Shown one piece after another: positions 1,239 through 31,731 of a stretch of DNA of 34,462 bases. A program made the translations under genes and the position numbers. Source of the stretch: an uncultured Clostridia bacterium (lineage in GTDB: Bacteria; Bacillota; Clostridia; Christensenellales; UBA1242). The notes beneath the pieces are model-generated. The model did not search any database. It worked only from the letters and a program-made list of their open reading frames with translations, and had not been told where the DNA came from. Each line of letters starts with the position of its first letter. Within the stretch, counting starts at the first letter, position 1. The DNA lies in contig CALWPI010000006.1 in assembly GCA_944383385.1 (NCBI GenBank), positions 1-34,462 on the forward strand, given 5' to 3'.

Positions 1239-1271
1239 AGTAAACTCCTAGTATATTCAAAATTCTAATTT

Positions 1272-1328: not shown

Positions 1329-1337
1329 ATGATAAAA

Positions 1338-4739: not shown

Positions 4740-4745
4740 AATAAC

Positions 4746-5306: not shown

Positions 5307-5335
5307 AAGCTCTCCTTATCTTTTTGTAATTTTAT

Positions 5336-6590: not shown

Positions 6591-6598
6591 AAATTCAC

Positions 6599-7069: not shown

Positions 7070-8208
7070 TAGAAGAACCCCCAAATATATGTAGATAACG
7101 TCACAAGCACACCAAGAGTAATGCTTGCATACAAAAACACACTATATATCCAAGTGATTTTCCCACGTTTTTTATCTATTGGCAACACCATATCTATTGG
7201 ATTTTGTACATAATCAAAGTCAGTGTTTAGGGTACAATTTGTCACGAGCATTTCTTCAATGACTTTACTGCTCTCTACTCGTATTGGACTATTGTCGTCC
7301 GGCACTTGATTGTTTTTATAAACTTGTTCAATAGCCTTATCCACACTATTGAGTGTGGTATATTTGAATAGTTTTGCAATTAAATATATAAGCAGTACAA
7401 CAACAATTATTAAGAATATAAAGCAAGCAAGGAATGTAAGCATAGTATTAGTTGATGTCAAAAAGTTGTTGAGCCAATCGTAGAATTTGCCGCCAACCCA
7501 ATTTTTGACTGCTGCAAATTCAAGATAAACATTCAAAAAGTTATTTACAAAGTGAATAATGATTGCAGGCACTATACTTCGTGTTGTCACTGCAACAAAG
7601 GCGATGAGCATACCAAGAATCATTGTGTAAAACACCTTGTCTATACTAAAATGCAATAGTCCAAATAATAATGATGAAATAATAATTGCTTTTTTGATGC
7701 CGATTCCACGCACTTCATAAAGTAGCAAACCCCTGTGCATATATTCTTCACATATTGCAGGCAATATAGCAGTCATAACTACTTCAAACCAAAATGCTCC
7801 CATCGAATAATCATGCGCAAGCCCATCACCCAGTCCTACTGCTGGTTCATATCCGGTAAATGATATAATCCCACCAAAAAGTGACGCTACTGCAATATTT
7901 AAGAAAAATGCAATAACACCAATGACTAAACAGATGAGAATTGACTTAAAATTAATTGCTCGCACTTTTGCTTTTTGCATAAGTTTCTTTGGTCCTTGTC
8001 CCAAAATGAGCCAAATAAGTACAGAAGGCAAAACAATCATTATACATATTTGTATCAAAAATGTGTAAAATGTCTCTTTTTCATAATAATTGTCAAAAGC
8101 AATCAAATTTCTATCAGACACAATACGGACAACACAAAAAGCAAGCATACATAAAAAGTATACAAAATAAGTCCAAAATATTTGACGTCCTGTTTTTTTA
8201 TCTACCAT
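7069..8208 (-). CDS. CPBP-family intramembrane protease, copy A
   Basis: This 379-residue polytopic membrane protein carries the three CPBP (Abi/Rce1-like) motifs: CEEYMHRG (the EExxxR box, about residue 153), FGLLHF (about 187) and HFVNNF (about 219). These residues form the glutamate-centred active site of Rce1-type proteases. The early part has about four hydrophobic segments, then a further helix near residue 255, a hydrophilic tail of about 80 residues, and a last hydrophobic segment at the C-terminus. AAAGGA five bases before the ATG supports the start, 12 bases after copy B. Bacterial relatives include bacteriocin-immunity and envelope-processing proteins; the substrate here is unknown. 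It shares its layout with the next gene, so the pair probably arose by an old duplication. Confidence 0.88.
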   Translation of the reverse strand: MVDKKTGRQIFWTYFVYFLCMLAFCVVRIVSDRNLIAFDNYYEKETFYTFLIQICIMIVLPSVLIWLILGQGPKKLMQKAKVRAINFKSILICLVIGVIAFFLNIAVASLFGGIISFTGYEPAVGLGDGLAHDYSMGAFWFEVVMTAILPAICEEYMHRGLLLYEVRGIGIKKAIIISSLLFGLLHFSIDKVFYTMILGMLIAFVAVTTRSIVPAIIIHFVNNFLNVYLEFAAVKNWVGGKFYDWLNNFLTSTNTMLTFLACFIFLIIVVVLLIYLIAKLFKYTTLNSVDKAIEQVYKNNQVPDDNSPIRVESSKVIEEMLVTNCTLNTDFDYVQNPIDMVLPIDKKRGKITWIYSVFLYASITLGVLVTLSTYIWGFF

Positions 8209-8220
8209 ATGAATCCTTTT

Positions 8221-9213
8221 TTATAAAAAATCAACAACAGTCATATATATCCACATAAATAGTGCAAGCGCTAGACCAAAAATAAGATAAAATATCTCTT
8301 CTTTACTTAACTTACGTGTTTTATTATCTACCACTTCATCATTTCTTGCATAAATTTTTTTAAGCCACATTGTAAAACCAAATAATATTGCAAGCCCTAA
8401 TATAAATAGCCCCACAGCGAGTACTACTTGCCACCATACGCCAAAATCAAAAACCATGGGATTGCCTGTTGCAGTCAAAATATATTCAAGAGTGACTACA
8501 ATAAAGTTATTTACAAAGTGAAATACCATACAATAAACAATGTTGTCAGTATAGAACATTATAAAACATAGGATTATACCAATCAAAAATTGATACACTG
8601 ATTGATTAAGACTGCCATGCATTATCATAAACAAGAACCCACTAAACAAAACAGCAGGTATTAGAGTGTATCTTGATTTTATACCATTAAAGACAACACC
8701 ACGATAAATTAGTTCTTCAATAAACGCAGGCAACACTGCAAGCACGAACAATAAAACTAAATAGTTCCCAAAATTATCAAGTGGTAGCATTGTGCTATTG
8801 TCTGGATGATATCCAAGTTTTGCAAATGCTTCTGCCAAAAGATTGATAAACATAACACAACAGGCAAAAGAAACAATTGACATGACAAGTACAATAAAAA
8901 ATGTTTTATAACTAAACTCTTTTTTTATTTTACTTGCCTTGAAAACTTGTATGTTTGATTTTTTGTTGTAAAGTATGTAAAACAAAAACAAAGCAACATT
9001 CGACATGATATTGATAAAAATCAAAAACCATGCACTCTTGCTCGTTGCGTCCATATTGCCCCCAGCCAGTCCAATAATGACTAGTGTGACAATCATAAGC
9101 GCAATCATTGCCACTTCTGGTATTAGCAAAGCATAAAAAAACGTCCTTACACTGTCCAAAAAAGTGTAGCGTTCTTTGAATACATTATTTTCATTGTTAA
9201 AGTCTTGTTGCAT
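8221..9213 (-). CDS. CPBP-family intramembrane protease, copy B
   Basis: This 330-residue membrane protein shows the same CPBP core: IEELIYRG (about residue 166), FMIMHG (about 197) and HFVNNF (about 232). Hydrophobic segments flank a loop with KKSNIQVFKASKIKKEF, and a final hydrophobic segment ends the protein, as in copy A but with a shorter tail. It is the first gene after the htrA terminator and has its own promoter, with AAAGGA six bases upstream of the ATG. It probably heads an operon running through copy A, rlmH, tadA, the GlmU-like gene, pth and mfd. Function beyond likely membrane proteolysis cannot be read from the sequence. Confidence 0.88.
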   Translation of the reverse strand: MQQDFNNENNVFKERYTFLDSVRTFFYALLIPEVAMIALMIVTLVIIGLAGGNMDATSKSAWFLIFINIMSNVALFLFYILYNKKSNIQVFKASKIKKEFSYKTFFIVLVMSIVSFACCVMFINLLAEAFAKLGYHPDNSTMLPLDNFGNYLVLLFVLAVLPAFIEELIYRGVVFNGIKSRYTLIPAVLFSGFLFMIMHGSLNQSVYQFLIGIILCFIMFYTDNIVYCMVFHFVNNFIVVTLEYILTATGNPMVFDFGVWWQVVLAVGLFILGLAILFGFTMWLKKIYARNDEVVDNKTRKLSKEEIFYLIFGLALALFMWIYMTVVDFL

Positions 9214-9235
9214 ATTCTATCCTTTTTACTTTTTT

Positions 9236-9265
9236 AGTATACTCTATTTTTATGTTTTGTGTCTA
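9236..9265 (-). promoter_or_regulatory. Predicted promoter of the CPBP-rlmH-tadA-pth-mfd operon
   Basis: On the minus strand TAGACA (9260-9265) and TATACT (9236-9241) stand 18 bases apart, just after the htrA terminator and about 25 bases before the CPBP copy B start. The -35 box is imperfect. Confidence 0.45.
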
Positions 9266-9282
9266 CACAATTTGGTTAATAT

Positions 9283-9306
9283 AAAAAACACTACATAGTA
9301 GTGTTT
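9283..9306 (-). terminator. Rho-independent terminator after htrA
   Basis: AAACACTAC pairs perfectly with GTAGTGTTT around a three-base loop. A run of six T follows on the minus strand. It lies 28 bases past the htrA stop and separates the yycJ-htrA unit from the CPBP operon. Confidence 0.8.
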
Positions 9307-9333
9307 CAAATTTTTCTATATTTTGACTTGTTT

Positions 9334-10344
9334 TTATCTATTTACAACATTCAAAATGACATTTTTTTGAGTGTTATTGCGAGTGTATTGTATGTTTAAT
9401 ACTTGACCTGCTTTGTATTTTGCAAGAATATCAATCAAATCACTTTCCTTGCAAATTTTTTGTCCGTTTATTTGTGTTATGACATCACCCACTTCAATCC
9501 CTACTCGACTTGCTGGACTATCGCTATCAACACATGCAACATAATATCCTACACCATTTATCGCGACACCATTTTGTTTTGCAATCTTACTGTCAAATCC
9601 CATTATACCAATGTATGGCAATTCATAATTGTCACTTTGTATAAGATTTTGGATAATTCCCTTTACATTACTTGCAGGTATTGCAAAACCCAAGCCTTCA
9701 TAACTAGACACTTTTAGCGTATTTATTCCAATTAGTTCTCCCTTTCTATTTATTAGAGCTCCACCACTGTTGCCTGGGTTGATGCTGGCGTCATGTTGAA
9801 TAAGTCCTTGCATATAACTGACGCCACCGTCTCCCGTCACTTCTAGACATCTATCAAGAGCACTGATGATACCTTTTGTAAATGTGTTTTGAAAAGTCAT
9901 TGTAAGTGGTGTCCCACAGGCAATAATCTCATCTCCGACACACACCTCGTCAATATCACCAATAGATAAATATGGAGAGTTGACATTTATCTTTAATATC
10001 GCAATATCTCGAACACTATCTCGATATACCAAATTAGATTGTGTACTTGTACCGTCACTAAAATATACTGTGTTGTCTGCACCATTTAGCACAACGTGAC
10101 TATTGGTCAAAATATGACCATACTGCGACACACACACTCCACTACCCAAACTTTCTTCTTGATTTGTCGCAGAATACACTGTAACAATCGCACTGTTTAC
10201 ATCATTTGCAATATCACTAAAATCATATTGTGTGACAATACCTTCTCTTGGCTCAACTAAATATGTAGACGCAGAATTTTTGCCACATCCTACAAACATA
10301 AATCCTGATAAAAAAATCGCTAACAAAACAGATGCTTTTTTCAT
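9334..10344 (-). CDS. htrA: HtrA/DegP-type serine protease, lipoprotein form
   Basis: The 336-residue product has a signal peptide with lipobox F-V-G-C (Cys20), then a trypsin-like domain and a single C-terminal PDZ domain. The catalytic triad is complete: His83 in TNSHVV, Asp113 in RDIAIL and Ser193 in NPGNSGGAL. The PDZ begins near residue 250 with VGIEVGDVITQING around residue 280-293. Such proteases degrade or refold damaged exported proteins. HtrA proteins of Bacillota are more often anchored by an N-terminal membrane helix; the lipid anchor here is a variation. AAGGAG four to five bases before the ATG supports the start. It lies 29 bases after yycJ, matching the conserved yycJ-htrA arrangement of the walRK region, although walR and walK are not in the window. 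Confidence 0.94.
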   Translation of the reverse strand: MKKASVLLAIFLSGFMFVGCGKNSASTYLVEPREGIVTQYDFSDIANDVNSAIVTVYSATNQEESLGSGVCVSQYGHILTNSHVVLNGADNTVYFSDGTSTQSNLVYRDSVRDIAILKINVNSPYLSIGDIDEVCVGDEIIACGTPLTMTFQNTFTKGIISALDRCLEVTGDGGVSYMQGLIQHDASINPGNSGGALINRKGELIGINTLKVSSYEGLGFAIPASNVKGIIQNLIQSDNYELPYIGIMGFDSKIAKQNGVAINGVGYYVACVDSDSPASRVGIEVGDVITQINGQKICKESDLIDILAKYKAGQVLNIQYTRNNTQKNVILNVVNR

Positions 10345-10373
10345 AAATCTCCTTTTGATAGCGATTGTTCTAT

Positions 10374-11162
10374 TTATTTCAAAGTAAAGAGTGTGCTTAT
10401 GTCATGTGCTTTTGCAATGTCAATCATAATATTGACACCAGGTGTTACACCTTGACTTGCCACTCTGTCACAAACACTCTTATAACACAAATCAGGTGTA
10501 TTGTTCTCTTCGCTCAAATGTGCAAGTAATATTTGCTTGACCCCAGCGCATGCTAGTTTGCAAATAACATCAGCACTATCTTTGTTGGATAGATGACCAA
10601 ATCTACCACCAATTCTATTTTTGAGTGCAAAGGAATACTTTGTAGACTCTCTCAACATTTTTTCGTCATAATTTGCTTCGAGTATGACCAATCTGCTACC
10701 AAAGACATTTTTTATAATGTCATCATTAGTATATCCCAAATCAGTCATAATACTTATTTGTTTGTCATTTTCTTTTATGGTATAGCCAACACAACAAATA
10801 GAGTCGTGTGGCAACTTAAAAGCATGGATATGATAGTTGTCAATCGCAAAGTCAGAAAAGTACTCAACAACGAGATTTGTATTCACTTTGCCAATCTTTT
10901 CAAGAATAGCATCAACTCCGTCAGCATGAGCATATATTTTTGTCCCATACTTTCTGGCAAACATTCCCACTCCTTTTGTGTGGTCGCTATGTTCATGGGT
11001 GACAAGTATTGCAGATACACTGTGTGGGTCGACCCCAAGAATCTCCATCCTGTTTTCTGTCTCTTTTAATGAAATACCACAATCAATCATAATGGCAGAT
11101 TTGTCGTCCCAAATTAGAGTACAATTTCCTTTGGACGAACTTGCAAGCATACAAACTTTCAT
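10374..11162 (-). CDS. yycJ: YycJ/WalJ-type metallo-beta-lactamase-fold hydrolase
   Basis: With the start at 11162 the protein has 262 residues and opens MKVCMLASSSKGNCTL, typical of YycJ. AAGGAGAG three to five bases before this ATG decides it over an upstream in-frame ATG at 11177, which lacks a ribosome site. The metal-binding motif H56-x-H58-x-D60-H61 (THEHSDH) is intact, and later metal ligands are seen in FKLPHDS, SIMTDLGY, EANYD and LAHLSEENN. YycJ is a 5'-exonuclease-like MBL enzyme of the walRK neighbourhood; roles in coordinating wall metabolism and in mismatch repair have been proposed. It precedes htrA. An M1-type peptidase gene ends 70 bases upstream and may be read into it. Confidence 0.92.
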   Translation of the reverse strand: MKVCMLASSSKGNCTLIWDDKSAIMIDCGISLKETENRMEILGVDPHSVSAILVTHEHSDHTKGVGMFARKYGTKIYAHADGVDAILEKIGKVNTNLVVEYFSDFAIDNYHIHAFKLPHDSICCVGYTIKENDKQISIMTDLGYTNDDIIKNVFGSRLVILEANYDEKMLRESTKYSFALKNRIGGRFGHLSNKDSADVICKLACAGVKQILLAHLSEENNTPDLCYKSVCDRVASQGVTPGVNIMIDIAKAHDISTLFTLK

Positions 11163-11232
11163 ACTCTCTCCTTGCATTCATTTTAGCACATTTATACTAT
11201 TTTGTAAAAAGGTATTTTTTGCCTATTTGCAA

Positions 11233-12717
11233 TTATGATATTTTGCCAATAATGACTTTGCCCTCTATCCAACTATCAAAGAAAGACCCCAGTTTTGTAT
11301 GACTTGCATGTTCCATACTTGAAAGCAAATTTGCAGGCGTTGCAATCTTATAAGCATTTTCTATATAATAATCTTGCAACCCTTTATAAAATTTGTTTTT
11401 GCCAATAACATCACGTAAATTGTCAAAAAATAACATTCCTTTGACGTAAGTCATGTATACATATTCGTATTCTGTATCATATTTGTTGATTGGTCTAGAC
11501 ATTGATGTATCGATTGTCCCAATCACTTCTTTGTACAAGTCCACAAAGGTCACGTAGTTGTTTGTGGCATTTTTTATAATTTCGTTGTAGTCTATGTTGT
11601 AATCTGGATTTTCTTCATAAAATAGCAATGTACTGTATTCAGTGAGTCCTTCGTCTAACCAAGCGTAGTCATATTCGTTATTGCCCACAACACCATACCA
11701 CCACTGATGTGCAATCTCGTGAATTATTACATTATTATAGTTTTCTACCCCTTCAACTTCGTCACTAATATATACAAGATTTGGATATTCCATACCACCA
11801 TGAACGAAGTTGCTTCTTACTACATTGAGCGAATCATATGGATATTCTCCAAACAATTTTTCAAATGTAGACAACGCATCTGTTGATGTTTTGAGATAAG
11901 CTTCTGCATTGTCTTGGTCGTAGTAAAAATAGTTGACTCTTGTGTCTCCCACGTCTTTACTCACAACAGAAAATTTGTCGCTCATAACAATGGCAAAATC
12001 TCTAACTGCTTTTGCACTCATATCCAGAATGGTTCTATCTCCCAAATTTTCTTTATTTGTTTCATATCCCGTATGAGCGACGGTATAATTACTATTATAT
12101 TCAAGTGTTACATTATAATTTGCGACATCACTATAAAATGGGTCACCATTGGCATCATATGGGCTTGTATTGTATTCCCCATTTTCATATACGCAAAGTA
12201 TAGGATAAAAATTGGCAATATTTATAGTATTATCTCCATATCCAAAACGGTGATTGACTCGTGGCATATCTATTTCAAACTCAATACTTATTTCTACTTT
12301 GTCATATGGTTCCATTTCGTATTCTATTGTCAAAATATCATTGTCTTGTCCTTCATATTGTGGAGTTACAACGTTATCATTTAGTGTAATATTCTCAATT
12401 TCGATATCTCCATAGTCAACTCCTTGTGGATAAGCATTCGCTTCATTTAGTTTACTTACTGGCCTATTGACAGCTGTTTCACTAAAAGCTCTTGGATACA
12501 AATGCATCTTTATATTTGGCAAAACAGCATCATATCTATTTGTAAACTCAATTGTCTCTGTACCCGAAATCGCATTTTCTTGATGATTGTAGTCTAGTAA
12601 GATAGAATATTCGTTCAAATCTTGTGACACTTTTTCTATTGTGCTCAATTTTTTACAACCAACAATGGTAAACGCTAGTCCAATACATAATAATATAGCA
12701 AAAATTTTCTTTTTCAC
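11233..12717 (-). CDS. M1-family metallopeptidase, lipoprotein
   Basis: The start is taken as GTG at 12717, where AAAGGAG lies six bases upstream; the longer ATG frame would put 15 hydrophilic residues before the signal peptide. The 494-residue product has a lipobox T-I-V-G-C (Cys21). The N-terminal beta-sandwich resembles M1 domain I. Then come HGGMEYPN, the equivalent of the family's GxMEN motif, and the zinc site H333-E334-x-x-H337 followed by E356 in DEGLTE, which fits HExxH-x18-E exactly. Extracellular, membrane-tethered aminopeptidase activity on peptides is the likely function. The C-terminal helical domain is short compared with full-length M1 enzymes of 800 or more residues, as in many bacterial M1 lipoproteins. 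Confidence 0.92.
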   Translation of the reverse strand: MKKKIFAILLCIGLAFTIVGCKKLSTIEKVSQDLNEYSILLDYNHQENAISGTETIEFTNRYDAVLPNIKMHLYPRAFSETAVNRPVSKLNEANAYPQGVDYGDIEIENITLNDNVVTPQYEGQDNDILTIEYEMEPYDKVEISIEFEIDMPRVNHRFGYGDNTINIANFYPILCVYENGEYNTSPYDANGDPFYSDVANYNVTLEYNSNYTVAHTGYETNKENLGDRTILDMSAKAVRDFAIVMSDKFSVVSKDVGDTRVNYFYYDQDNAEAYLKTSTDALSTFEKLFGEYPYDSLNVVRSNFVHGGMEYPNLVYISDEVEGVENYNNVIIHEIAHQWWYGVVGNNEYDYAWLDEGLTEYSTLLFYEENPDYNIDYNEIIKNATNNYVTFVDLYKEVIGTIDTSMSRPINKYDTEYEYVYMTYVKGMLFFDNLRDVIGKNKFYKGLQDYYIENAYKIATPANLLSSMEHASHTKLGSFFDSWIEGKVIIGKIS

Positions 12718-12723
12718 AATAAA

Positions 12724-12730
12724 CTCCTTT
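12724..12730 (-). promoter_or_regulatory. Ribosome binding site that fixes the GTG start of the M1 peptidase
   Basis: AAAGGAG on the minus strand stands six bases before GTG at 12717. No such site precedes the in-frame ATG at 12762, so the GTG start, which also gives a clean lipoprotein signal, is preferred. Confidence 0.75.
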
Positions 12731-12794
12731 TTTATAGTGTAATATATGTTGCAAAATGGCAATTTAGAAGTATGTGTTATAAAAAGAAAACTTA

Positions 12795-12824
12795 TTGATT
12801 TTTTGTATTAATCTAATGTATAAT
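12795..12824 (+). promoter_or_regulatory. Predicted promoter of the dnaB-dnaI-like operon
   Basis: TTGATT (12795-12800) and TATAAT (12819-12824) are 18 bases apart, about 47 bases before the ATG at 12871. Confidence 0.6.
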
Positions 12825-12840
12825 GAAATGAAGTAGTATA

Positions 12841-12855
12841 GGCAATAGAATTGCC
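12841..12855 (+). repeat. Inverted repeat in the 5' leader of the dnaB-like gene
   Basis: GGCAAT-aga-ATTGCC is a perfect 6-bp inverted repeat. It sits between the expected transcription start (about 12831) and the AGGAG at 12861. It could be a repressor operator or a small leader hairpin near the ribosome site. Confidence 0.45.
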
Positions 12856-12870
12856 AAACAAGGAGTTTGT

Positions 12871-14298
12871 ATGTCCTTTTGTAAATTTTCTAGTGAATTT
12901 ATAAGAAGCAGTCATGTCGAATTGAGTAATGATTTTATAAAAGAATTTTTGCCAAGCGCTCCGGATTGCTGTGTCAAAGTCTATTTGTATGGGCTCTATC
13001 TTTGCAGTGAAAATTTGGATTATTCTATTGAAGATATGGCAGCAAATTTGCACGAGAGTGTAGAAGATATCGAAAGCGCATTTTTGTACTGGCAAGAACT
13101 AGGTCTTGTACAAGTGCTATCTACAACACCTATCGAAGTGAGATATCTACCAACTAAATTTGGTAGCCATTCCTATAAAAAATATAACAAAGAAAAGTAC
13201 TCATCTTTCAATATTGAATTGCAAGAAATATTAAATGGCAGACAAATTACCCCAAATGAATATAATGAATACTATTATTTTATGGAAACATATGGTTTTA
13301 CTCAAACAGCACTACTGATGATTGCAAGATATTGTGTTTCTCTTAAAAATAATAAAATAAATTATCCTTATATAAGCAAAGTCATTCGTGATTTTATTAA
13401 TGATAATATTTTTGACGAAAAAGGTGTAGAAGAGCGCCTTGCTGAACAAGAACGTGCAACAAGTGATTTGAAACTAGTACTAAAAGCGCTCAAAATATCT
13501 CATAAGCCAACTTTGGAAGAATATAATATGTATCTGGATTGGACCAAAGATATGGAAATGGAATTATCCACTATACTTGCAGTTGCAAAACATATAAAAT
13601 CTGGTGGTATGAGCAAATTAAACTCACTCCTTGAAAAATGTTATAATGCTAGATGTAATACTGCAAACGAAGTGGAAACATTCTTTGATAACCAAGAAAA
13701 ATATATAGATATTGCAAAAACTATTTGTAAAAATTTGGGTGTTAGATATGAAAGTCTAGATAATATTATTGAAAAATATATTGTCACTTGGTCTAATATG
13801 GGATATGACAAAGACACATTAGTCGAACTTGCCGACTATTGTTTTCTAAAAAGCATAAGAACACTTGAAGGTCTCAATATGTTGGTACAAAAGTTTTATA
13901 ATTTAGGACTTGTAAGCCTTGATTCCATTCATAAATATATTGATGAACAAAATGCTATTGATAGCAAAATCAAAAGCATTCTTGAAAGTCTTGGCATTTC
14001 TAGATTTGTCACAAGCGATGATAGGACAAAATACAATTTGTGGCAAGAATGGGCAATAAGCGATGAACTTCTCGATTACGCTATTCAAAAAGCAAGTGGC
14101 AAGGTGTCTGCAATGATATATTTGCACAAAATATTATCATCATTTCACTCGAACAACATAACGACAGTTGAACAGGCAAAGAAACAAAATATTTCTTTTG
14201 ATACCCCAGAGACAAATAAATCAACCATGCCAATGCGCGCGTACAAAAAAGAAGAACTCGCAAGTTTGTTTGATGATATAAAGAAGGTAGAACTATGA
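12871..14298 (+). CDS. DnaD/DnaB-type replication initiation protein with repeated modules
   Basis: The 475-residue protein has a DnaD-type winged-helix N-terminus (about residues 1-100; LPSAPDCCVKVYLYGLYL) and then several helical DnaB_2/DnaD-C modules. The clearest are at about 115-190 (METYGFTQTALLMIARYCV), 198-265 (LKLVLKALKIS), 280-350 (IAKTICKNLGV) and 366-436 (KIKSILESLGIS, then SGKVSAMIYLHKIL). Bacillus DnaB has a similar total length but only two such modules. The C-terminal RAYKKEELASLFDDI resembles the tail of clostridial DnaD proteins. AGGAG five bases upstream supports the ATG. It overlaps the next gene by four bases (ATGA), like the dnaB-dnaI pair. The likely role is helping load the replicative helicase at the origin. 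Confidence 0.85.
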   Translation: MSFCKFSSEFIRSSHVELSNDFIKEFLPSAPDCCVKVYLYGLYLCSENLDYSIEDMAANLHESVEDIESAFLYWQELGLVQVLSTTPIEVRYLPTKFGSHSYKKYNKEKYSSFNIELQEILNGRQITPNEYNEYYYFMETYGFTQTALLMIARYCVSLKNNKINYPYISKVIRDFINDNIFDEKGVEERLAEQERATSDLKLVLKALKISHKPTLEEYNMYLDWTKDMEMELSTILAVAKHIKSGGMSKLNSLLEKCYNARCNTANEVETFFDNQEKYIDIAKTICKNLGVRYESLDNIIEKYIVTWSNMGYDKDTLVELADYCFLKSIRTLEGLNMLVQKFYNLGLVSLDSIHKYIDEQNAIDSKIKSILESLGISRFVTSDDRTKYNLWQEWAISDELLDYAIQKASGKVSAMIYLHKILSSFHSNNITTVEQAKKQNISFDTPETNKSTMPMRAYKKEELASLFDDIKKVEL

Positions 14299-21371: not shown

Positions 21372-21397
21372 TAAAAAAGGCATATTTCTATGCCTTA
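21372..21397 (-). terminator. Terminator of the signal-peptidase/bPH2 operon
   Basis: AAGGCATA-GAAA-TATGCCTT on the minus strand, followed by a T-run. It starts in the TAA stop codon of the bPH2-type gene. Confidence 0.8.
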
Positions 21398-21967
21398 TTT
21401 TTGTTCATTTTGAGTTTTCTTTTCGTCAATATATGATTTTATTTTTTTATATTCATCATATGGATTTTTGATATTACTAAACATATACATTGTATTTCTC
21501 ATTGTATTGCCAACAGGTGACGACGTTGAGCCAAACAATATTGTTCCTGTATTTGTACGGCAGATTTTGTCTAATAGTGTTACGTTGACGTTCACTGCTC
21601 CTATCATTTTCATATCAAGCGACTTAAAGTCAGTACCAAACACTCCACGTCTAATTAAAACTCTTTGGTCAGTTACTGCATAAAACACATTTCTGTAATA
21701 AAAGATTGAATAAATAATGTCAATAATATACACTAACGCAGAACTTCCAGCAAATATCGACCATATAACAACAGCAATATCTGTCGTCATCGTTTGTTCC
21801 TCTATCATACCAAAAGATGCAACTAAAAATATTAACAAATAAAATAATATAAATAATGTAACATAGACAATGTTAGACACCCAAAATTTCAATTTATTTG
21901 GTTTTAATACACTTTTGATTGTTTCACCTTTATCTAAAATTGGTTCAAACTGTTTTTCAAGTTCCAT
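21395..21967 (-). CDS. bPH2 (DUF304)-type membrane protein
   Basis: The start at 21967 is fixed by GGAGGT five bases upstream; longer frames from ATG codons upstream would overlap the signal peptidase gene. The 190-residue product has two hydrophobic segments (about residues 33-55 and 65-90), followed by a bacterial pleckstrin-homology-like domain, seen in FYAVTDQRVLIRRGVFG and SLDMKMIGAVNVNVTLLDKI, then GTILFGS. In other families the first motif is the start of the bPH2 fold and the domain is cytoplasmic. It follows the signal peptidase gene with only a short overlap of start and stop (TAATG then GGAGGT). Function is unknown. Confidence 0.82.
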   Translation of the reverse strand: MELEKQFEPILDKGETIKSVLKPNKLKFWVSNIVYVTLFILFYLLIFLVASFGMIEEQTMTTDIAVVIWSIFAGSSALVYIIDIIYSIFYYRNVFYAVTDQRVLIRRGVFGTDFKSLDMKMIGAVNVNVTLLDKICRTNTGTILFGSTSSPVGNTMRNTMYMFSNIKNPYDEYKKIKSYIDEKKTQNEQK

Positions 21968-21978
21968 AAATACCTCCA

Positions 21979-22473
21979 TTAAATATAATGCACTACAAAG
22001 AATGATAAAAATATTGCTATACATATAAATATGATGTTTACTGGTTGTTTAATGAAATTTATTACATTGCCAAGTTCTGGAAACCAATAAACGACTTTGC
22101 CTGCAACTTGTTCGACTGACCTATATCCGTCTCCATCTGGGTCAATCTCTGCACTTGTAGCGTCTCCTCTCGTATTGATTGTGCCATTTTCTCTATTTAC
22201 ATCAATTATTCTATGTGTAAGATATGTGCCCGAGCCTAATTTCATAGTAACAATATCTCCTACTTCTAGGTCGTCAATATCAACATTTTTGTATATACAA
22301 ACTATTGTCCCCACTTTGAGTGTTGGTTCCATAGAATATGACACAATATTGAGGTATTGGAAACCACTCAAAAGAGATATAACAAACGTCACAACAACGC
22401 CAACAAAAAGATTGCGAAGTATGGCAACTATCCAATATTTTAGTGGGTCTTTTTGCTTAAAAATATTTTTCAT
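21979..22473 (-). CDS. SipW/ER-type signal peptidase I
   Basis: The 164-residue membrane protease has the nucleophile Ser47 in VSYSMEPTLKVG. In place of the usual lysine it has His87 in TYLTHRII, which marks the S26B type (SipW, archaeal and ER signal peptidases) and its Ser-His dyad. NTRGDAT and downstream acidic residues match the third conserved box. Membrane segments lie near residues 16-38 and at the C-terminus. SipW in Bacillus subtilis matures TasA and TapA, and relatives often process pili-like or surface fibre proteins. No TasA-like gene is in the window. AAAGGA six bases before the ATG supports the start. Confidence 0.92.
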   Translation of the reverse strand: MKNIFKQKDPLKYWIVAILRNLFVGVVVTFVISLLSGFQYLNIVSYSMEPTLKVGTIVCIYKNVDIDDLEVGDIVTMKLGSGTYLTHRIIDVNRENGTINTRGDATSAEIDPDGDGYRSVEQVAGKVVYWFPELGNVINFIKQPVNIIFICIAIFLSFFVVHYI

Positions 22474-22670: not shown

Positions 22671-25600
22671 CTATTCGATTTCCCAACTCAAAATGTAAAT
22701 ATAATAAGTCGTGTCATTTACTTGTATCATTGATTTGGTCTTTTCGAATACGCCACTTGACTCAATCATTCCTTTGATCTGTCCGTCTTCACTTTGTTGA
22801 GTAAAGTTTGTAGTATTAGTTATACCATTGCTACTACCACCCACACCTGTTCCAGTGTGTGAATATGTCTCTAATTCTTGATAATATACTTGGCTAAATC
22901 CACCACCATTATTTTGAGCGACAACTAGTCCAATATTGTATTGTCCTGTTGTGTTCTTTGTAATATTATCAACAATGACATAACAATTTGTAATTGATGA
23001 GAGTGCACTTGTTCTATTTGAACCAATGAGTCCACCAAAATAGATTGTTGCATTTGAACTATTATTTGTCAAACTAACATTTTGTAGTACAGTATAACTA
23101 TTTTTGAGTGTTGGAGTGTATGACTGACTGCCGTCAGATACATACATTATACCGACCAATCCTGCAACTGTAATATTTGCATTATTTCCAGTTACAACAA
23201 TAGAGCCCGTATTATAACATGAGTCAACAATACTATAATTGTTATACACTAATCCAGCAATATTTGCATATTTTGCAGTAATCGTGCCACTCGTGCCACT
23301 ATCCACCACACTACCATAGTTGTAGTTGACAAGCCCAGCAATAGTAATCGTTCCATTTTGAGAAGTGTCCGAAGTAATATTTGCTTGTGATACAACACGA
23401 CTGACAAATCCACTTGTACCATTTCTATAACTGACAAGAGCAATATTGACATTTCTTTGTGAAGTCACTTTGATATTTCCAGTAATATTAATATTGGAAA
23501 TCGTTCCGTCATTTCTATTAGTCAATACACCAATTATCAAAGACTCTGTACTACTACAATTTATTTCAAAATTGTTGAGTGTGAGATTGATATTATTGAT
23601 TTCGCCTGTATTGTTACCAAATAGAGAGAAGTTGGAAGTGAGTGATGATACTTTGCCTTTGACTTCGACATGCAAGTCACGAATGTTACCTGCATTGTTT
23701 ACAATAAACTTGCTTGCATAGTTTGCATCATAGATAATATTACCACCATATATTTCACCCGTACTATTTAGTGTTATAAATGTACTAGATGCCATATACG
23801 TTATAGTATTGCTGTTTAGATTCAAATATCCGTCAAAGTCATCTATTGTAGTCCAACTACTCAATGATATGTCTTGTGTCAACATAAAGTAATATTTGCC
23901 TGTTGCAAATTGTCTCATATTTTGAAGTTGTGTTGCATTGCTAATTTGATAAGGATTGTTTTCCGTACCATTACCAGCAGCAAATACACTGAGTTGTGCA
24001 CTTTGTGTTGCTGACAATTGAGATTTCTCATACGTATCAGATTCACTGTACATAGCAATCTCACTATAACTACCAATATTTGTTAGCCTATACTGCGTGT
24101 CACCTTTTTCGAGTCTCATTGTGATTTTGACTGAAATTGTATCTCCGCTATTTGGATTGGTCCATTCGTCATCAGTATAACTTACTTCGACTTCGCCAAT
24201 TTTTCTCACAATGTCAAATTGTGTGTAACCAGCAGATTCGACTCTACTTACGATATTTTCAAACGAATTGTAACTATCGTTTACATTAATATTCATTGTG
24301 TAATTAATATATGGTCGATAATCATCACGAACGTTTGTCCATGACACATAACCCGTAGTCGAATCAAATTGGATATTGATTGGTGTTTGTGGTACAGCTG
24401 TATCAACGACATTACTAAATGCCCCAGACACATATTTCGTTCCCGATTCAGTTGCAGTTGCTGTGCTTCCTAGCACTCTTACTTGACTACGATAATTTAT
24501 ATTGCCTTGTGGCAATCCTTGATTGATATTTGCAGTAAAGAAACTGAATGTAGATGTTTCGCTATTGTATGTCACAACACTTGCAATATTGGCTATTGCT
24601 TGATTTTCTTTGTTTGCAATCCAAGCATTTGATGCAGAGTCAAATGTATACTCTGAATATACTACACTATTTATCACAGCACTTCCAATATCTCCTGCTG
24701 TATAAATGTTGTAAACATATTTTTTGACAAACTGTTCTGTTTGTGTGCCACCTTCGTCAGTCACAAGGTTGAATGTGGTTGATACCAATTGATAACCCAC
24801 TGCATTATTTGCTTGTGCAAAGTTGAGTGTCGCATCACTACCATTTTGTCCGTAATCAAGTGTAGTCGTTCCCAAATATTGTACAGTCATTGTTGCTGTT
24901 GTACTACTTATATTGAGAGTGTCTGGTTTTGCCACTTGATACACTTCGATTTGGTATGTGTTCCCTTCTACAAACAATGGATTGCCTTCTTGGTCAACTT
25001 GGTCAGCAAATACAAATGCACTGTGTGGATATGACATATCTTGTTCAAACAATACATTATCATTTTCTCTTATAACAACATGGACATTTTGTCCTTCAAC
25101 ATCGCTTGTGTTTGCCAAATCCCACAACACATCACCGTTATTGAGTCTCAGTGTTGGAGATGCCAATTTGTGAACTGTTGCAGTAGATGCAATACCAATA
25201 ATATGACTTTCGCCAATTGTCCTTTGTGCTCTCACACTTATGACATAGTCGCCTGCTGGATACAATTCGTCATCTTCAAGACTGTATTCTGTACCACCAT
25301 TGACTTCAATAGTTGTTTTGTTGTTGATTGTGATTTCGTATCCGTTGACGAGTTCGACACTATCCCAAACAATATTAAATCCGTCAACTCTAATATTTTC
25401 CACACTGTCAAATCTTGTATATGCTTGGTCATCAAGTGTCATTTCTCCAACAATTGCCATTGGAGAATCTTCTGTTGGTGCGTCTTGTACACCTATCTTA
25501 TAATAAATTGCTTTGCCACTATCGTCAAATGCAGCATAAGTTTGTGGCAATTCAAATACAAACTGTGTTTCGCCTTGCGATTCTTTTTCAATATAGTGCA

Positions 25601-28600
25601 CACCAGCTTGTTCAAATGGACCGTTTATACTGCTTGACTTATAAACTGTAATTCTAGCAGCATTGATACAACTGAATACGTATCTGCCTGTTTGGTCAAG
25701 AGTGATATCACTAACAGAATTGCCAAGTGTCACAAATGTTCTCTTTGCAGATTCTTGTGCCGTTATTGTATTTATTCCATTGCCGTATTCTTGAATAGTC
25801 AAATCATAGTATTCATTCTTTGCAAGCACTTGACTAGAAAATTCACTTGTTTTATTTGAAGGCAGTTTGATGCCACCACCATACAAAACAGTGTCAACAT
25901 TTTCGTTAGTCAAATTTGGATACATTTCTTTTGCCACATCACGAAGCAAAGCTGTGTCAATGAGTTCGCCGTCGCCGTTTCTATAAATTCTTAATACTTG
26001 GAAATATGCAATACTACTTGGTGCCCATGCTACTTGTCCGTCTTTGATTGAAAGTGTTGGACGAATAAGCACTTGCACACTGGTGTTGTCGACATAATTG
26101 CTACGCAAAGCAAATACATTGTCTACAACGCTTTGTCCAGCACTATCTACTGTACCCAACACTCGCACTCTTACACTAAAAGATGTTTGTGTAGGCAAAT
26201 TGAGTGCTGTAATAATATCTCCAAATGGTACACAACCATAATGTGCTGATTCGTTGTCTGTACCGTCTTTTAGGTAACCACTATCCGTTTCGACAACAAA
26301 TTCTTTTGATTGTTCGACATTATTTTGAATATATTTGAGTTCGATAACATAATTTGACTCTTTTTCAACGCCTTGTGGGTCGGTGTAGAATACTCTATTA
26401 AAGTATACGTTGTTGTTGAAAGTATATCCTGTGATTTGTTCGCCTTCAAGTGTAACACAAGAAGGTGCAACTGCTTTGTAAACAGTATATTCTTGCAACA
26501 TATTACCAGCAATACGGAGTGTATATTCACTCTCTGCATTACCAGAGTTGCCCACATTGCCAAATGCAATCTTGTAGTATCCCTCGCTTGACTCAAAATC
26601 ATATATCAAACGTATTGCTAAACTGTCACTTGCTGTATCTTCCGTATTATAATCAAAGCTTGTTACAGTTTGATTGTTTATTTTGTTGTAATAACTTGCA
26701 CTATCTCCTGCTGTTGAAAGTGCAGAATATTGTACATTGATTGTTATCAAATGTCTAATAGCATTAAAGAACTCCTGTTCTGAACACACAGTCACAGTCT
26801 CATCGTCTGGACCTGTTGCTGTAATATTTTGTTCAGTCGACAATTCGTCGCCTTTTATCACCTTTCTTGTAACATCTCTAAATAATGACAAGACTCTGCT
26901 ATCTTCAAGATACTCACTATTTGTCATTTGAGCCAAACAATCTTTAATGTCTTTTAATGTAATTGTCCATTCAAACACACCGTTTTTGATGCTGACCTTT
27001 TCATTTGTGATAACGTCATCTTTAATTAGTCCAGCAAGTATAGTTGGATTTGAATTTGAAATATATCCTTGATTACCATTGATATATCCCCAAGCATAGA
27101 CGTAGACATCAAATTCGCCATTGGAGACTACGTTATCAAATGAATATTCAGTGCCCGTTACATATTGTGTATCAACAGTACTATCATCATTTGCATTTTT
27201 GACAACAACTTTATATTGTGATGCGTTTTGTAGAGCATCCCATTTGAGTTTGCCGTCTTCTAATCTAACATTTTCGACTTGACCTAATGTATTGATAGTG
27301 ACTTCGTCACTGTATTTGCTATTGATATATCCGTCTATTACTGCATCATTTGTGTTTGGTATTACAGTGTTTCCAATTGCTATAATTGCAATATCAACGC
27401 TGCCAGACAAAGAGTCAATATTTTCTATATCATAACTGTGCAAATCTTTGCCAATTACATCAATCACTATGTTTGTAGGTTCGCCATTTTCAAATACTAC
27501 AATTTTATATCCAGTAGCATTTTCCACAGCGTCCCATGACAATCTTGTTATAAGACCAGCGACTTCCTCATTTTCAGTAATTGATTCAATTTTAATATTT
27601 TTAACTGTATCCAATCTTTTTACTGTGAGTGGTAAAGAAATGTTACTATCAACAAATCCGTCTTTTGATACGTACAACGTGTAAGTGTATGTTCCTAGAC
27701 TTTGCATAGAATCATCAATATAAATTGTGCTCAAATTGTCTTGCAAAGTGACCTCGACGTCGCCATTAAACAAATGATATGCGTAGCCCGTTGTGTTGTC
27801 TGGTCCTACAAAATTGATAACACCATTATTGAGTGTTACAGCTGGTGTCAACAATTTTTCTACTCTAAAATATCCTGTTACACTAGAATCAAGTATGTCT
27901 GCATTGTTGCCAATGACTTGGAGTGTAACATAATAGACCCCACCTTCATACTGGCTAAAATCATAACTTGTCAAGTGTCCCATGTTGTATTCGCCCAACT
28001 TGCTATACATTGTGCCATTGCCTTCACAATCAATCGTTCCGTCTGTGTCTCTGCCATAGACCGTCAACAGATAATGATCAAAATTGATATCTGTTTCAAT
28101 ATCTTCCCAAGATAATTTTCCACCACTTACAACAAGTGACCCTGTATTAACAGTTGGCAAAACATCAATTGTCAGTCCACTGCCTGCATTACTTGTCACA
28201 TATCCCGAACTGGTTGCGCTTGTGCTACCCACAGCAATTACAACATAACGATAAGTGTTAGGTTCTGTTTTATAGATTTCAAAGCTATAACTACCTGCAC
28301 CAGTATTTTCTATTGTTTGAATAAGATTATTGCCTTGTTCTGTAATCTCATATACTTCATATTTTGAAGCATATTCAACATCTCCAATCTTTGGTGCGAC
28401 AAATGTTATTGTATTGTTTGCAATAGACATTTCTGTAATAGTAGGCAATTTTTGTAGAGACAATGTTGTGCTCTTATTTGATGAAATATTGTTTGGACGT
28501 GTTACAACAACGCTCAAATTATACACTTTGCCGGCAACTAGTTCGACAGATAAATAATTATTATTTGTTGTTTCAAGTATCACATCTCCGTCATACACTT

Positions 28601-31481
28601 GATAAGTCATTCCGTCCGTCTTTGTCCAAGTAAACTGACCATTTACAACAGCAAGTCCTGTGGCATCATATAGTTTGTTGAATGACAAATCGGTAGACAT
28701 ATTGCTATCTATACAATTATTGTTTTCGCTCAATGCAACTATTGTTATCTTGTGGCTACCTGCTGATACGCTTGCAGGCAGTGTATAGTTCGTTCCAATA
28801 ATTGTTTCTGTATTAGATTTTATTTCATCAACATAGACATCATATCCAGTTGCTTTTATATTGCCAACACTGGACTCTTGCCATACAATTTTTGAACCAG
28901 ATGCTTGTGGTACAACAGTTGGTAGTTTGACAAAAGTAAATGTTGTAGACAATTTGCTATCAACATATTTGCCTGTGCCCAATGCTTTGAGAAGCACAGA
29001 ATATGTTCCAGCCTCTAATGTACTGCCGTCAATTTCTCCACCAAGGATAGCATCTTCAAGAGAGACGACTTTGTTTTCACCATCCAAGTCTGTGTGACGC
29101 ACTTCACAATAATAGCCATTTGAATTTTCGTCTCTATCAAATGATATGGTATATTTGTCTATTGATTTTTCAACCGTCAGTTCTTGTACTGTATCAAGCA
29201 TTGTAAACGTACAAATGTTAGACAACTCACTTTCGATATATCCATTTTGATACAAATATATTTGAACCGTATGCTCGCCTGCAACAGTTAGATAATTTGC
29301 AATATCAATGACTCCTGCTTCTTGTGAAACTTCAATAGGATTATTTTGATTATTGTCAATTATTGCATAAATTGTTGCATTGCTAATATCATCTGTTGAC
29401 GTAAAATACAATTTACCATTTTGTGTTTGCAAATTACTAATTTTATCAAATGTGTCGTAACTATAAGGTTGAGAAGACAAACTATTTATTGAACTGCCGT
29501 CCACACTGCTTACGCTATCTTTACCAAGAGCAACTACGGTAATTGACGTACCTACTCTTTGCACTTTATACGTAGGACTTGTTGTAAATGTTGTGACATC
29601 TCCTTCGGTTACAGCATATCCAACAGCCCCTGAGACAGCACTCCAACTAATACTTTGAGTAGTTGAATTGATTGCAAAAGTGGTATGGTCAACTTGTGCC
29701 AATTTTGTGAATGTATAACCATTTTGATTTTCGCCAAACACATCAATACTTGAAATAGTGGTGACACCATCGCCAACTGCTCTCACAAATATTTGATAAC
29801 TGCCTGCATCTAAATCGCTTGGCAGAGTATATGAATAACTAGACCCCGACAATTGATACTCGCCATTGTCACTTTCAAGTAATGTGATTTTCTTGTCTGT
29901 CCCTTGTAAATATACAAAATACGTGACTTCTTGTTCGAGTTTTGTCCAAATGATTGTAGAGTTACCTAACACAATATTTGACACATCACTTATGATATTA
30001 TTATTTTTGAGTGCTGTAATTTCTACTTTTGGCAAAACATCAAAACTAATATCACAATTTAGTGTATTACTTGTTGCATATTCGCCATTGTCTTGACCTA
30101 ATGTTATGATATTTACGCTATAATTACCAGTCTTACCTTTTAGAGTGTCATACAAAGATATTGTAGAGCTAGAAGCCCCTGTCAACTTGTATTGATACAC
30201 TTGACCATCAGTGTTATTCATAAACTGAACAGTATATCCCGAAGCATTTGCATTTGCATCAAACATAAGTTTGCTGTCCTGCACTTTGACACCTGTAACA
30301 GTAGCAAGTTTTTCAAAGACAAAAGTTGCTACATCACCTTTTATTTTGTCGTCACTCAAAGGATAAACCTGTGCAGTATATTGACCTGCATCAAGGCTCG
30401 TCAAATCAAATTGTGACTGACTCAAAGTAAATTGTTGTTCTCCAATTTTTAGTGCATAAGTGCTTGCCCCACTAATGTCTGCCCAATCAAGCAATGTGCC
30501 ATCATTTGTAATGTGCAAGTCGTTAATAGTACTCAATTTGCTCACAACATAATCGTAGGTCGAGAATGTGTTGTTTTGATAGACATTATCAAGTGTGGAT
30601 TGTGGAATGACTGTTACTTCAAATTTCGTAGCGTCACTTGCTCCTTCAATGCTACTCAAATCAAATTGCAAAGGTTCAGTAGCATCAACACTTGTTTGAT
30701 AAGTCTCTGTGCTGTCTCCCCTCAATGTGTATCTCACATAAATATTATAGCTAGTAGCATTCTCCACTCCTTGCCAAGACAAGATATATTCATCATTGCT
30801 ATACTGTGTCACTTTTGGCAAATAATAGAAGGACACTTCACTTGAATATTCACTATCCACATATGCTTTGCCCACACCTTTTGCCATAACACTTACAGTA
30901 TATTCTTTGCCCTCTTCATAATCGTCAAAGGTATAACTATTGGTGTCTTTTGCAATGTCTATAAGAGTATCTTCTTGTCCATTATTTATTTTTAATGTAT
31001 ATCCATTGTTTCCTACGACATTATCCCAAGAAATATTTTCATCATCATAAACAACATTAGTTGGTGCAGGTAATTGCACTTGTTGTACTACTTTTAGAGT
31101 CAAAGTTGCTTTGTGCTCACGGTGTACCGTTGAGACAGTAATTGTGACTTCTCCAACACCAACTGCTTCGACATAAAAAGTGTCATATCCTTCTGTGCGT
31201 TCTGGCGCTCCTTCTAGTTCAACAACGCCAGTTTTATCAAAAGAAATAACCACATCATCATAATCTGCTGATGTGTTTATAGGGTCAACTTTATATGTTA
31301 TGCCTAGTCGTTCACCGATTAATAATTCGTTATTGTCTTCCAAATAATCTTGTTGTGGAAGAATGATATAATTTGGCAAAACTATTGGTGTTTGCGATTT
31401 TTTGTCATCACAACCACAGCCAGACAACCCGAGCGTTCCCAACAACGCCGTTGATACAACTATTGCTTTCCATTTTTTCAT
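22671..31481 (-). CDS. Giant lipoprotein with fibronectin-III-like repeats and GLUG-like C-terminus
   Basis: This single uninterrupted frame of 2936 residues fills a quarter of the window. It has a signal peptide with lipobox G-L-S-G-C (Cys22), then C-G-C-D-D. A bacterial-Ig-like domain follows (about 35-130, YVEAVGVGEVTITV). About 22 fibronectin-III-like modules of roughly 80-120 residues come next, many starting with L-P/D/G/A-x-V, then an N/D-G-x-L-x-W/F strand and a G-Y-x-V strand. The last 440 residues (from about 2500) open with GTENNPYQISNATQLQNM and continue as a GLUG-like beta-helix region, with recurring IAGLV, NYGSVVDSGTSG and VAGLVG. No LPXTG or other sorting signal is seen, so the lipid should anchor it at the cell surface. 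A binding or adhesion role is plausible but is inference. The start has no clear SD apart from a weak AGGTAG. Confidence 0.92.
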   Translation of the reverse strand: MKKWKAIVVSTALLGTLGLSGCGCDDKKSQTPIVLPNYIILPQQDYLEDNNELLIGERLGITYKVDPINTSADYDDVVISFDKTGVVELEGAPERTEGYDTFYVEAVGVGEVTITVSTVHREHKATLTLKVVQQVQLPAPTNVVYDDENISWDNVVGNNGYTLKINNGQEDTLIDIAKDTNSYTFDDYEEGKEYTVSVMAKGVGKAYVDSEYSSEVSFYYLPKVTQYSNDEYILSWQGVENATSYNIYVRYTLRGDSTETYQTSVDATEPLQFDLSSIEGASDATKFEVTVIPQSTLDNVYQNNTFSTYDYVVSKLSTINDLHITNDGTLLDWADISGASTYALKIGEQQFTLSQSQFDLTSLDAGQYTAQVYPLSDDKIKGDVATFVFEKLATVTGVKVQDSKLMFDANANASGYTVQFMNNTDGQVYQYKLTGASSSTISLYDTLKGKTGNYSVNIITLGQDNGEYATSNTLNCDISFDVLPKVEITALKNNNIISDVSNIVLGNSTIIWTKLEQEVTYFVYLQGTDKKITLLESDNGEYQLSGSSYSYTLPSDLDAGSYQIFVRAVGDGVTTISSIDVFGENQNGYTFTKLAQVDHTTFAINSTTQSISWSAVSGAVGYAVTEGDVTTFTTSPTYKVQRVGTSITVVALGKDSVSSVDGSSINSLSSQPYSYDTFDKISNLQTQNGKLYFTSTDDISNATIYAIIDNNQNNPIEVSQEAGVIDIANYLTVAGEHTVQIYLYQNGYIESELSNICTFTMLDTVQELTVEKSIDKYTISFDRDENSNGYYCEVRHTDLDGENKVVSLEDAILGGEIDGSTLEAGTYSVLLKALGTGKYVDSKLSTTFTFVKLPTVVPQASGSKIVWQESSVGNIKATGYDVYVDEIKSNTETIIGTNYTLPASVSAGSHKITIVALSENNNCIDSNMSTDLSFNKLYDATGLAVVNGQFTWTKTDGMTYQVYDGDVILETTNNNYLSVELVAGKVYNLSVVVTRPNNISSNKSTTLSLQKLPTITEMSIANNTITFVAPKIGDVEYASKYEVYEITEQGNNLIQTIENTGAGSYSFEIYKTEPNTYRYVVIAVGSTSATSSGYVTSNAGSGLTIDVLPTVNTGSLVVSGGKLSWEDIETDINFDHYLLTVYGRDTDGTIDCEGNGTMYSKLGEYNMGHLTSYDFSQYEGGVYYVTLQVIGNNADILDSSVTGYFRVEKLLTPAVTLNNGVINFVGPDNTTGYAYHLFNGDVEVTLQDNLSTIYIDDSMQSLGTYTYTLYVSKDGFVDSNISLPLTVKRLDTVKNIKIESITENEEVAGLITRLSWDAVENATGYKIVVFENGEPTNIVIDVIGKDLHSYDIENIDSLSGSVDIAIIAIGNTVIPNTNDAVIDGYINSKYSDEVTINTLGQVENVRLEDGKLKWDALQNASQYKVVVKNANDDSTVDTQYVTGTEYSFDNVVSNGEFDVYVYAWGYINGNQGYISNSNPTILAGLIKDDVITNEKVSIKNGVFEWTITLKDIKDCLAQMTNSEYLEDSRVLSLFRDVTRKVIKGDELSTEQNITATGPDDETVTVCSEQEFFNAIRHLITINVQYSALSTAGDSASYYNKINNQTVTSFDYNTEDTASDSLAIRLIYDFESSEGYYKIAFGNVGNSGNAESEYTLRIAGNMLQEYTVYKAVAPSCVTLEGEQITGYTFNNNVYFNRVFYTDPQGVEKESNYVIELKYIQNNVEQSKEFVVETDSGYLKDGTDNESAHYGCVPFGDIITALNLPTQTSFSVRVRVLGTVDSAGQSVVDNVFALRSNYVDNTSVQVLIRPTLSIKDGQVAWAPSSIAYFQVLRIYRNGDGELIDTALLRDVAKEMYPNLTNENVDTVLYGGGIKLPSNKTSEFSSQVLAKNEYYDLTIQEYGNGINTITAQESAKRTFVTLGNSVSDITLDQTGRYVFSCINAARITVYKSSSINGPFEQAGVHYIEKESQGETQFVFELPQTYAAFDDSGKAIYYKIGVQDAPTEDSPMAIVGEMTLDDQAYTRFDSVENIRVDGFNIVWDSVELVNGYEITINNKTTIEVNGGTEYSLEDDELYPAGDYVISVRAQRTIGESHIIGIASTATVHKLASPTLRLNNGDVLWDLANTSDVEGQNVHVVIRENDNVLFEQDMSYPHSAFVFADQVDQEGNPLFVEGNTYQIEVYQVAKPDTLNISSTTATMTVQYLGTTTLDYGQNGSDATLNFAQANNAVGYQLVSTTFNLVTDEGGTQTEQFVKKYVYNIYTAGDIGSAVINSVVYSEYTFDSASNAWIANKENQAIANIASVVTYNSETSTFSFFTANINQGLPQGNINYRSQVRVLGSTATATESGTKYVSGAFSNVVDTAVPQTPINIQFDSTTGYVSWTNVRDDYRPYINYTMNINVNDSYNSFENIVSRVESAGYTQFDIVRKIGEVEVSYTDDEWTNPNSGDTISVKITMRLEKGDTQYRLTNIGSYSEIAMYSESDTYEKSQLSATQSAQLSVFAAGNGTENNPYQISNATQLQNMRQFATGKYYFMLTQDISLSSWTTIDDFDGYLNLNSNTITYMASSTFITLNSTGEIYGGNIIYDANYASKFIVNNAGNIRDLHVEVKGKVSSLTSNFSLFGNNTGEINNINLTLNNFEINCSSTESLIIGVLTNRNDGTISNINITGNIKVTSQRNVNIALVSYRNGTSGFVSRVVSQANITSDTSQNGTITIAGLVNYNYGSVVDSGTSGTITAKYANIAGLVYNNYSIVDSCYNTGSIVVTGNNANITVAGLVGIMYVSDGSQSYTPTLKNSYTVLQNVSLTNNSSNATIYFGGLIGSNRTSALSSITNCYVIVDNITKNTTGQYNIGLVVAQNNGGGFSQVYYQELETYSHTGTGVGGSSNGITNTTNFTQQSEDGQIKGMIESSGVFEKTKSMIQVNDTTYYIYILSWEIE
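24010..31080 (-). repeat. Array of about 22 degenerate FN3-like protein modules
   Basis: The modules, counted by reading the protein, begin at residue about 134 and run to about 2490. They have diverged enough that I see no obvious near-identical DNA copies. One module in the middle, around residue 1490-1660, is longer and includes a helical insert (KDIKDCLAQMTNSEYLEDSR). Limits are approximate. Confidence 0.6.
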
Positions 31482-31505: not shown

Positions 31506-31527
31506 CTAGTTATAATGATTATACTAG
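31506..31527. repeat. Imperfect palindrome over the giant-gene promoter
   Basis: CTAGT-t-ATAAT-g-ATTATACTAG has 10-base arms with one bulged T. It covers the predicted -10 box of the giant lipoprotein gene, so it could be an operator. Confidence 0.4.
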
Positions 31528-31545
31528 AATTTATAATAACGACAA
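31518..31545 (-). promoter_or_regulatory. Possible promoter of the giant lipoprotein gene
   Basis: TATAAT at 31518-31523 on the minus strand, with TTGTCG 16 bases upstream (31540-31545). A second TATAAT lies at 31500-31505 within a repeated CTAGTATAAT, so the exact start is uncertain. Confidence 0.4.
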
Positions 31546-31698: not shown

Positions 31699-31731
31699 AA
31701 AAAAAGTGATAAGATTGTCTTACCACTTTTT
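31699..31731 (-). terminator. Terminator of the flavin oxidoreductase gene
   Basis: On the minus strand AAAAAGTGGTAAG pairs with CTTATCACTTTTT, with one G-T pair and a five-base loop, ending in a run of T. It lies just after the stop codon. Confidence 0.85.

Follow-up and report, generated by a model that had tools for sequence, protein, structure and literature searches.

How could a gut-dwelling member of the Clostridia whose genome is tiny display a protein of almost three thousand residues, and what would such a protein be for? The question is raised by one gene in the window, the whole stretch of 34,462 nucleotides analysed here, which comes from a draft genome (G000 hereafter) of 0.92 Mb in 60 contigs, estimated as 95% complete. 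The gene (22671..31481, minus strand) takes up almost 1% of the host DNA. It runs from an ATG at 31481 to a stop at 22671 and encodes 2936 residues with zero internal stops, in agreement with the single unbroken 8.8-kb frame described in the first-pass annotation; its strand is minus, as is that of all features of the locus given below. Sequence and prediction give its product a signal peptide with a lipobox, a Big_2-like domain, a long FN3-like array and a C-terminal GLUG solenoid, an anatomy that is well supported.

The giant gene and its SipW-type neighbour

Two genes on the same strand follow the giant gene downstream. One encodes a SipW-type (ER-type) signal peptidase I of 164 residues with Ser47 and His87 (21979..22473), and the other, third of the unit, a membrane protein with a bPH_2 domain (21395..22024; PF03703, 31 bits for a cut-off of 22). 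A consensus scan alone places a promoter-like site, TTGTCG-16-TATAAT, 5′ of the giant gene (31518..31545). Scanning also located a terminator-like hairpin of 14 pairs closing the upstream gene (31701..31731) and another one 3′ of the PH-domain gene (21377..21396), while no terminator-like hairpin was found between the giant gene and sipW. The giant, SipW-type and PH-domain genes are thereby predicted to form one operon. The sister species of the same genus (G001) displays the same gene order, and the bPH_2 membrane gene is co-directional with the other two in both genomes of the genus.

The neighbouring peptidase scores 64.2 bits with TIGR02228 (cut-off 51.85) and is the sole SipW-type gene above this cut-off in the host genome. 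Its Ser47 and His87 are invariant in an alignment of seven homologues; for the SipW pattern scan only three alignment rows were used, the seven-row alignment being too diverse. With NF046067, the equivalog model of Bacillus SipW, it reaches 56.1 bits, below the 190 of that model.

This association extends over the family. The giant adjoins a SipW-type gene in ten family genomes, representing nine genera: the two genes are co-directional neighbours in G000, G001, G005, G006, G012, G014, G021, G028 and G031 (the last from another genus than the host) and convergent in G008. The same arrangement is found on contig SIG384 (L130). Gaps between the two genes go from an 8-bp overlap (G012) up to about 200 bp, and the SipW-type genes of G005, G006 and G028, with 38-49 bits, stay under the TIGR02228 cut-off. 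Since the upstream neighbours vary between genomes, the pairing has been kept while its surroundings were shuffled. For eleven other FN3-array giants of the family, of which two are truncated where their contigs stop, a SipW neighbour was not seen, so that the giant can probably work without this link. The G006 giant seems split into two frames (L204, 8016-12946 minus), through assembly error, frameshift or pseudogene formation. The SipW and TasA-like context and its family-wide spread are new beyond the first-pass annotation.

TasA-like proteins as candidate SipW substrates

Genes that we call TasA-like follow the giant-SipW pair in G005, G006, G008, G014, G021, G031 and L130. Their products are short and secreted, with signal sequences ending in AWFTD-, AYF- or SWF-like motifs. 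The host genome carries a cluster of them (types A, B and C) on contig C11 and more copies on C27, C36 and C60, none adjacent to the giant gene. Pfam and NCBIfam searches of these proteins gave no match, and a PDB sequence search returned nothing useful. A profile built on SipW-locus proteins of other Firmicutes matches most of them, largely via the signal-peptide motif, and the mature part alone receives weak to moderate support; the structure prediction of one of them was poor (pLDDT 61) and Foldseek gave no placement. In view of this weak match of the mature part and of the poor fold model, they are named TasA-like and not TasA.

Several other genes of these loci deserve mention. Type A TasA-like proteins of the genus and of G031 (L094 9927-10694, L098 7445-8155 and L037 1420-2202, all minus) possess a lipobox-like cysteine (FAGC, LSGC or LTGC) a few residues before AWF(T/S), and could possibly be lipid-anchored fibre bases. 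Two lipoproteins of 700-850 residues are encoded beside the TasA-like cluster (L094 3957-8464 minus; L098 3-2108 and 3465-6017 minus), of which the one with 748 residues had no Pfam match. At the end of the SipW locus, G014 (L042 1029-3575 minus) and SIG384 (L130 13672-16122 plus) encode a lipoprotein with one or two FN3-like modules; that of G014 has some likeness to a family of lipoproteins related to transglutaminases (NF045980), although its 52 bits are far under the cut-off. A membrane-anchored protein of 1642-1996 residues with a YA.W-type repeat end, linked to two smaller genes, is present in both G000 and G031 (L052 2-4927 minus and 4948-6611; L037 12158-19900 minus).

A proposed cell-bound partner of fibres, or an independent stalk

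SipW is an enzyme that in other bacteria releases proteins of biofilm fibres. In Bacillus subtilis, tapA precedes sipW, and TapA acts as nucleator of TasA fibres and possibly as their anchor (PMC9674648, PMC10151520). The giant locus resembles tapA-sipW-tasA (PMC10151520, PMC9674648) in that a surface accessory gene is followed by sipW, that the peptidase is of the SipW-type ER class and that secreted proteins whose signals end in hydrophobic-A(W/Y)F are encoded in the same genome or locus. The differences are also clear: TapA is a small substrate of SipW cleavage with a single Ig-like domain, whereas the giant is a 2936-residue lipoprotein with FN3 and GLUG regions, and tasA belongs to the operon in B. 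subtilis whereas the host TasA-like genes are elsewhere in the genome. A PDB sequence search with the giant gave no TapA match; with no sequence relation detected between the two proteins, the likeness is one of position, perhaps of role, only. In Clostridium perfringens the sipW-bsaABC locus (PMC7395162), and in B. cereus sipW-tasA-calY (PMC4292775), likewise combine a Firmicutes SipW with secreted fibre subunits. According to the accessible parts of these two reports, accessory proteins vary, B. cereus being devoid of TapA, and a giant lipoprotein is not mentioned.

The giant gene being in the place of tapA, the most likely role of its product is that of a cell-bound partner of SipW-dependent fibres. 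In the mechanism that we propose, Lgt and Lsp would fix the protein in the membrane through the cysteine at its mature N-terminus. The FN3 rod would cross the peptidoglycan wall, and the GLUG solenoid would be exposed outside, where it could adhere to the matrix, to a glycan or to a neighbour. SipW, as a product of the shared transcript, would release the TasA-like secreted proteins, encoded elsewhere here and next door in several relatives, and the giant would serve as anchor, organiser or co-adhesin of the resulting extracellular fibres. The fibre link is drawn from gene linkage only; the combined reading, in which a membrane-tethered FN3 stalk carries a GLUG tip and serves fibres processed by SipW as partner or anchor, is on balance somewhat more probable than not.

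The same stalk might instead act on its own as an adhesin, the proximity of sipW reflecting co-regulation of surface genes only and not any contact with fibres. This would fit with the fact that, among the giants of the family, about half were seen without a SipW neighbour, with the location of the host TasA-like cluster on a separate contig and with the frequent occurrence of GLUG and FN3 arrays in adhesins. It accounts less easily for a pair retained in nine genera, with gaps of at most about 200 bp, despite changing other neighbours. We regard an independent stalk as quite possible, though short of probable, and continue with the fibre partner as the preferred reading.

Probable lipid anchoring in a nearly sortase-free family

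Whichever its partners, how is the giant held? Residues 1-22 (31416..31481) form a lipoprotein signal peptide ending in the lipobox LSGC with Cys22, which fits the pattern [LVI][ASTVI][GAS]C and bears out the canonical lipobox noticed in the first-pass annotation. A lipobox-like motif is retained in nearly all family giants, across genera, amid rapidly diverging surrounding sequence, and Lgt is encoded in the host genome (197 bits). We infer from these sequences that the N-terminus would be held in the membrane by lipid after Lgt and Lsp processing.

The protein could instead be secreted to form a matrix free of any lipid anchor, with a lipobox arisen by chance and cleavage by SipW or signal peptidase I, and its predicted co-transcription with SipW could be read in that sense. 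Chance is hard to reconcile with a motif kept in nearly all relatives while the sequence around it diverges rapidly, and Lgt is at hand in the genome; such a free matrix protein is very unlikely.

Sortase anchoring was rejected: the host genome has no match to the sortase family PF04203, and a scan of the giant revealed neither LPxTG nor a C-terminal membrane segment. Sortase is present in one of 35 family genomes and absent from the other 34; of 24 genomes from the rest of the order, 11 possess it. In a family nearly free of sortase, where the usual Gram-positive route is missing, lipid anchoring is therefore the obvious route for the giant. A wall-less cell was also considered and rejected, given that penicillin-binding proteins (transpeptidases) are encoded in the host genome. 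Sortase-anchored giant FN3, Big or GLUG adhesins of Gram-positive bacteria combine a long modular rod, a terminal adhesive domain and surface display across the wall. The giant would share these features but with the opposite polarity, lipid fixing its N-terminus in the membrane and the C-terminus forming the free tip, and it has no LPxTG and its genome no sortase.

Inspection by eye of other proteins in the window suggests lipobox signals in an HtrA-like protease (9334-10344), an M1-like peptidase (11233-12762) and a foldase-like protein (3-1238), all on the minus strand, and lipid anchoring looks common among the surface proteins of this genome. Two tandem membrane proteins (7069-9213 minus) resemble, by eye, CPBP-type intramembrane proteases.

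A predicted FN3 rod ending in a GLUG solenoid

The first domain of the mature protein lies at about residues 35-135 (31077..31379). It has no Pfam match to Big_2 (PF02368, cut-off 22.8) itself, while N-terminal domains of relatives do match (65 bits in G003, 61 bits in G029), and we call it Big_2-like only since these matches come from relatives and not from its own copy. It is followed by the array: an HMM iterated over the giants of the family detects 20 FN3-like modules in residues 136-2206 (24864..31076), and 17-32 modules in ten other long giants of the family. Three stretches have no HMM module (1484-1578, 1922-2022 and 2207-2490) and leave space for about four more, so that the earlier count of about 22 modules is a fair one (20 to about 24). 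The last of these stretches (24012..24863) is predicted to consist of beta domains, with pLDDT of about 75-88 up to residue 2396 or so.

Several approaches converge on the FN3 fold. Against the Pfam fn3 (PF00041) cut-off of 25 bits, the raw giant protein falls short at 16.4 bits, and the consensus of the family modules is just over at 25.4 bits (E 1.6e-5). A profile of 50 modules finds FN3 domains of titin (E 2.7e-8), fibronectin (4.8e-7) and also tenascin in the PDB. The AlphaFold model of residues 1737-2936 has beta modules at 2031-2396 (pLDDT 75-88), residues 1737-2020 being of low confidence, and Foldseek relates this model to FN3 tandems of fibronectin and gp130, to GhpA, to 3n6z and to pneumococcal IgA1 protease. 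Thus the HMM searches and structure prediction proposed as checks in the first-pass annotation did find FN3 folds, by PDB profile, AlphaFold and Foldseek alike.

An FN3 module is about 3.5 nm long and walls are typically 20-40 nm thick. With 20-24 modules the stalk would measure 70-84 nm, and with its end domains some 80-95 nm, more than the wall.

The GLUG region makes up the C-terminal 440 residues or so (about 2501-2936; 22674..23981). As noted at first sight, it opens with the characteristic start of such domains, GNGTENNPYQIS at residue 2503. Pfam Glug (PF07581, cut-off 20.5) is marginal in this protein, with 21.1 bits in a six-frame search (22959-23045) and 16.2 bits on the C-terminal piece of 497 residues; it is clear in giants of several relatives (22-39 bits). 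AlphaFold predicts with good confidence a regular beta-solenoid at residues 2496-2766 (pLDDT 80-95). The region retrieves 3n6z from Bacteroides in a phmmer search of the PDB (E 0.011), and its model matches the same entry with Foldseek (prob 1.00, E 1e-4). This protein, BACOVA_03286 of Bacteroides ovatus, shares the GNGT..PY.I opening and the beta-solenoid fold, but it is short and stands alone, whereas in the giant the solenoid ends an FN3 rod. One of the best Foldseek matches is GhpA, the grappling hook protein of Aureispira (9fly, 9flv), likewise a giant of the cell surface; it comes from a different organism and is larger, and the likeness is generic to Ig-like tandems. The solenoid could be a free tip with a role in binding.

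As 3n6z is named a putative IgA1 protease, Foldseek also retrieves the pneumococcal IgA1 protease 6xja and G012 shows a weak Peptidase_M26_N match, the giant might be thought of as a platform for an enzyme or inhibitor, such as a giant protease, or a protease decoy, with kinship to the IgA1 proteases, in which GLUG-like solenoids also occur. HExxH is found in no giant, for which reason a protease identity was rejected, and catalytic Pfam domains were not found; we give such a platform hardly any credence. What had been pictured at first, a long lipid-anchored stalk with GLUG at its tip, is supported by lipobox conservation, Lgt, the missing sortase, the FN3 folds and the solenoid.

Integrity and age of the giant gene

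Orthologues of full length exist in G001 (2910 residues, 31-32% identity) and G031 (2897 residues, 27% identity), co-linear with the giant throughout, which excludes a chimera of several genes. The assembly error that the first-pass annotation had kept in mind is ruled out in the same way: for all that the genome is a draft in 60 contigs, these orthologues in two other genomes, the even base composition along the gene and its lack of DNA repeats leave a negligible chance that assembly joined several genes. A phage origin was rejected, there being no match in phage records.

The modules of the giant have a mean pairwise identity of 19% (best pair 35%), and comparison of the gene with itself at the DNA level detects no self-similarity; a recent repeat expansion was rejected on these grounds. 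Modules are more similar to their orthologues in G001 (32% mean identity) than to each other, and the array is therefore older than the genus, so that the strong divergence and old age ascribed to it earlier both hold. Searching the genome contigs with the giant sequence itself as query gave no match, probably because this sequence diverges too fast.

The same genome encodes a second giant lipoprotein with GLUG motifs, of at least 4365 residues, which continues past the contig end (L050, G000:C7:1-20000, 3-13097 minus). Contig C32 (L051) begins with an open frame of 1312 residues, also with GLUG, that could continue it.

Implications for sortase-free Clostridia

Taken singly, FN3 rods, GLUG domains, lipoproteins and SipW operons are familiar. 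In the open-access literature we found no description of a giant lipid-anchored FN3-GLUG rod paired with SipW in a walled family nearly free of sortase. A more specific scenario can be put forward tentatively, and we consider it rather unlikely as it stands: lipid-anchored FN3-GLUG giants would have taken the tapA position in this family, anchoring or nucleating donor-strand fibres processed by SipW. If true, the membrane-rooted FN3-GLUG rod would be a solution to fibre anchoring unlike both TapA and sortase pili. More broadly, these observations point to how walled gut Clostridia with reduced genomes and no sortase may carry very long surface proteins, by means of an N-terminal lipid and a rod of sufficient length to span the wall. 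That the giant has stayed paired with SipW provides a connection to the formation of fibres or biofilms that can be put to the test in this little-known uncultured group.
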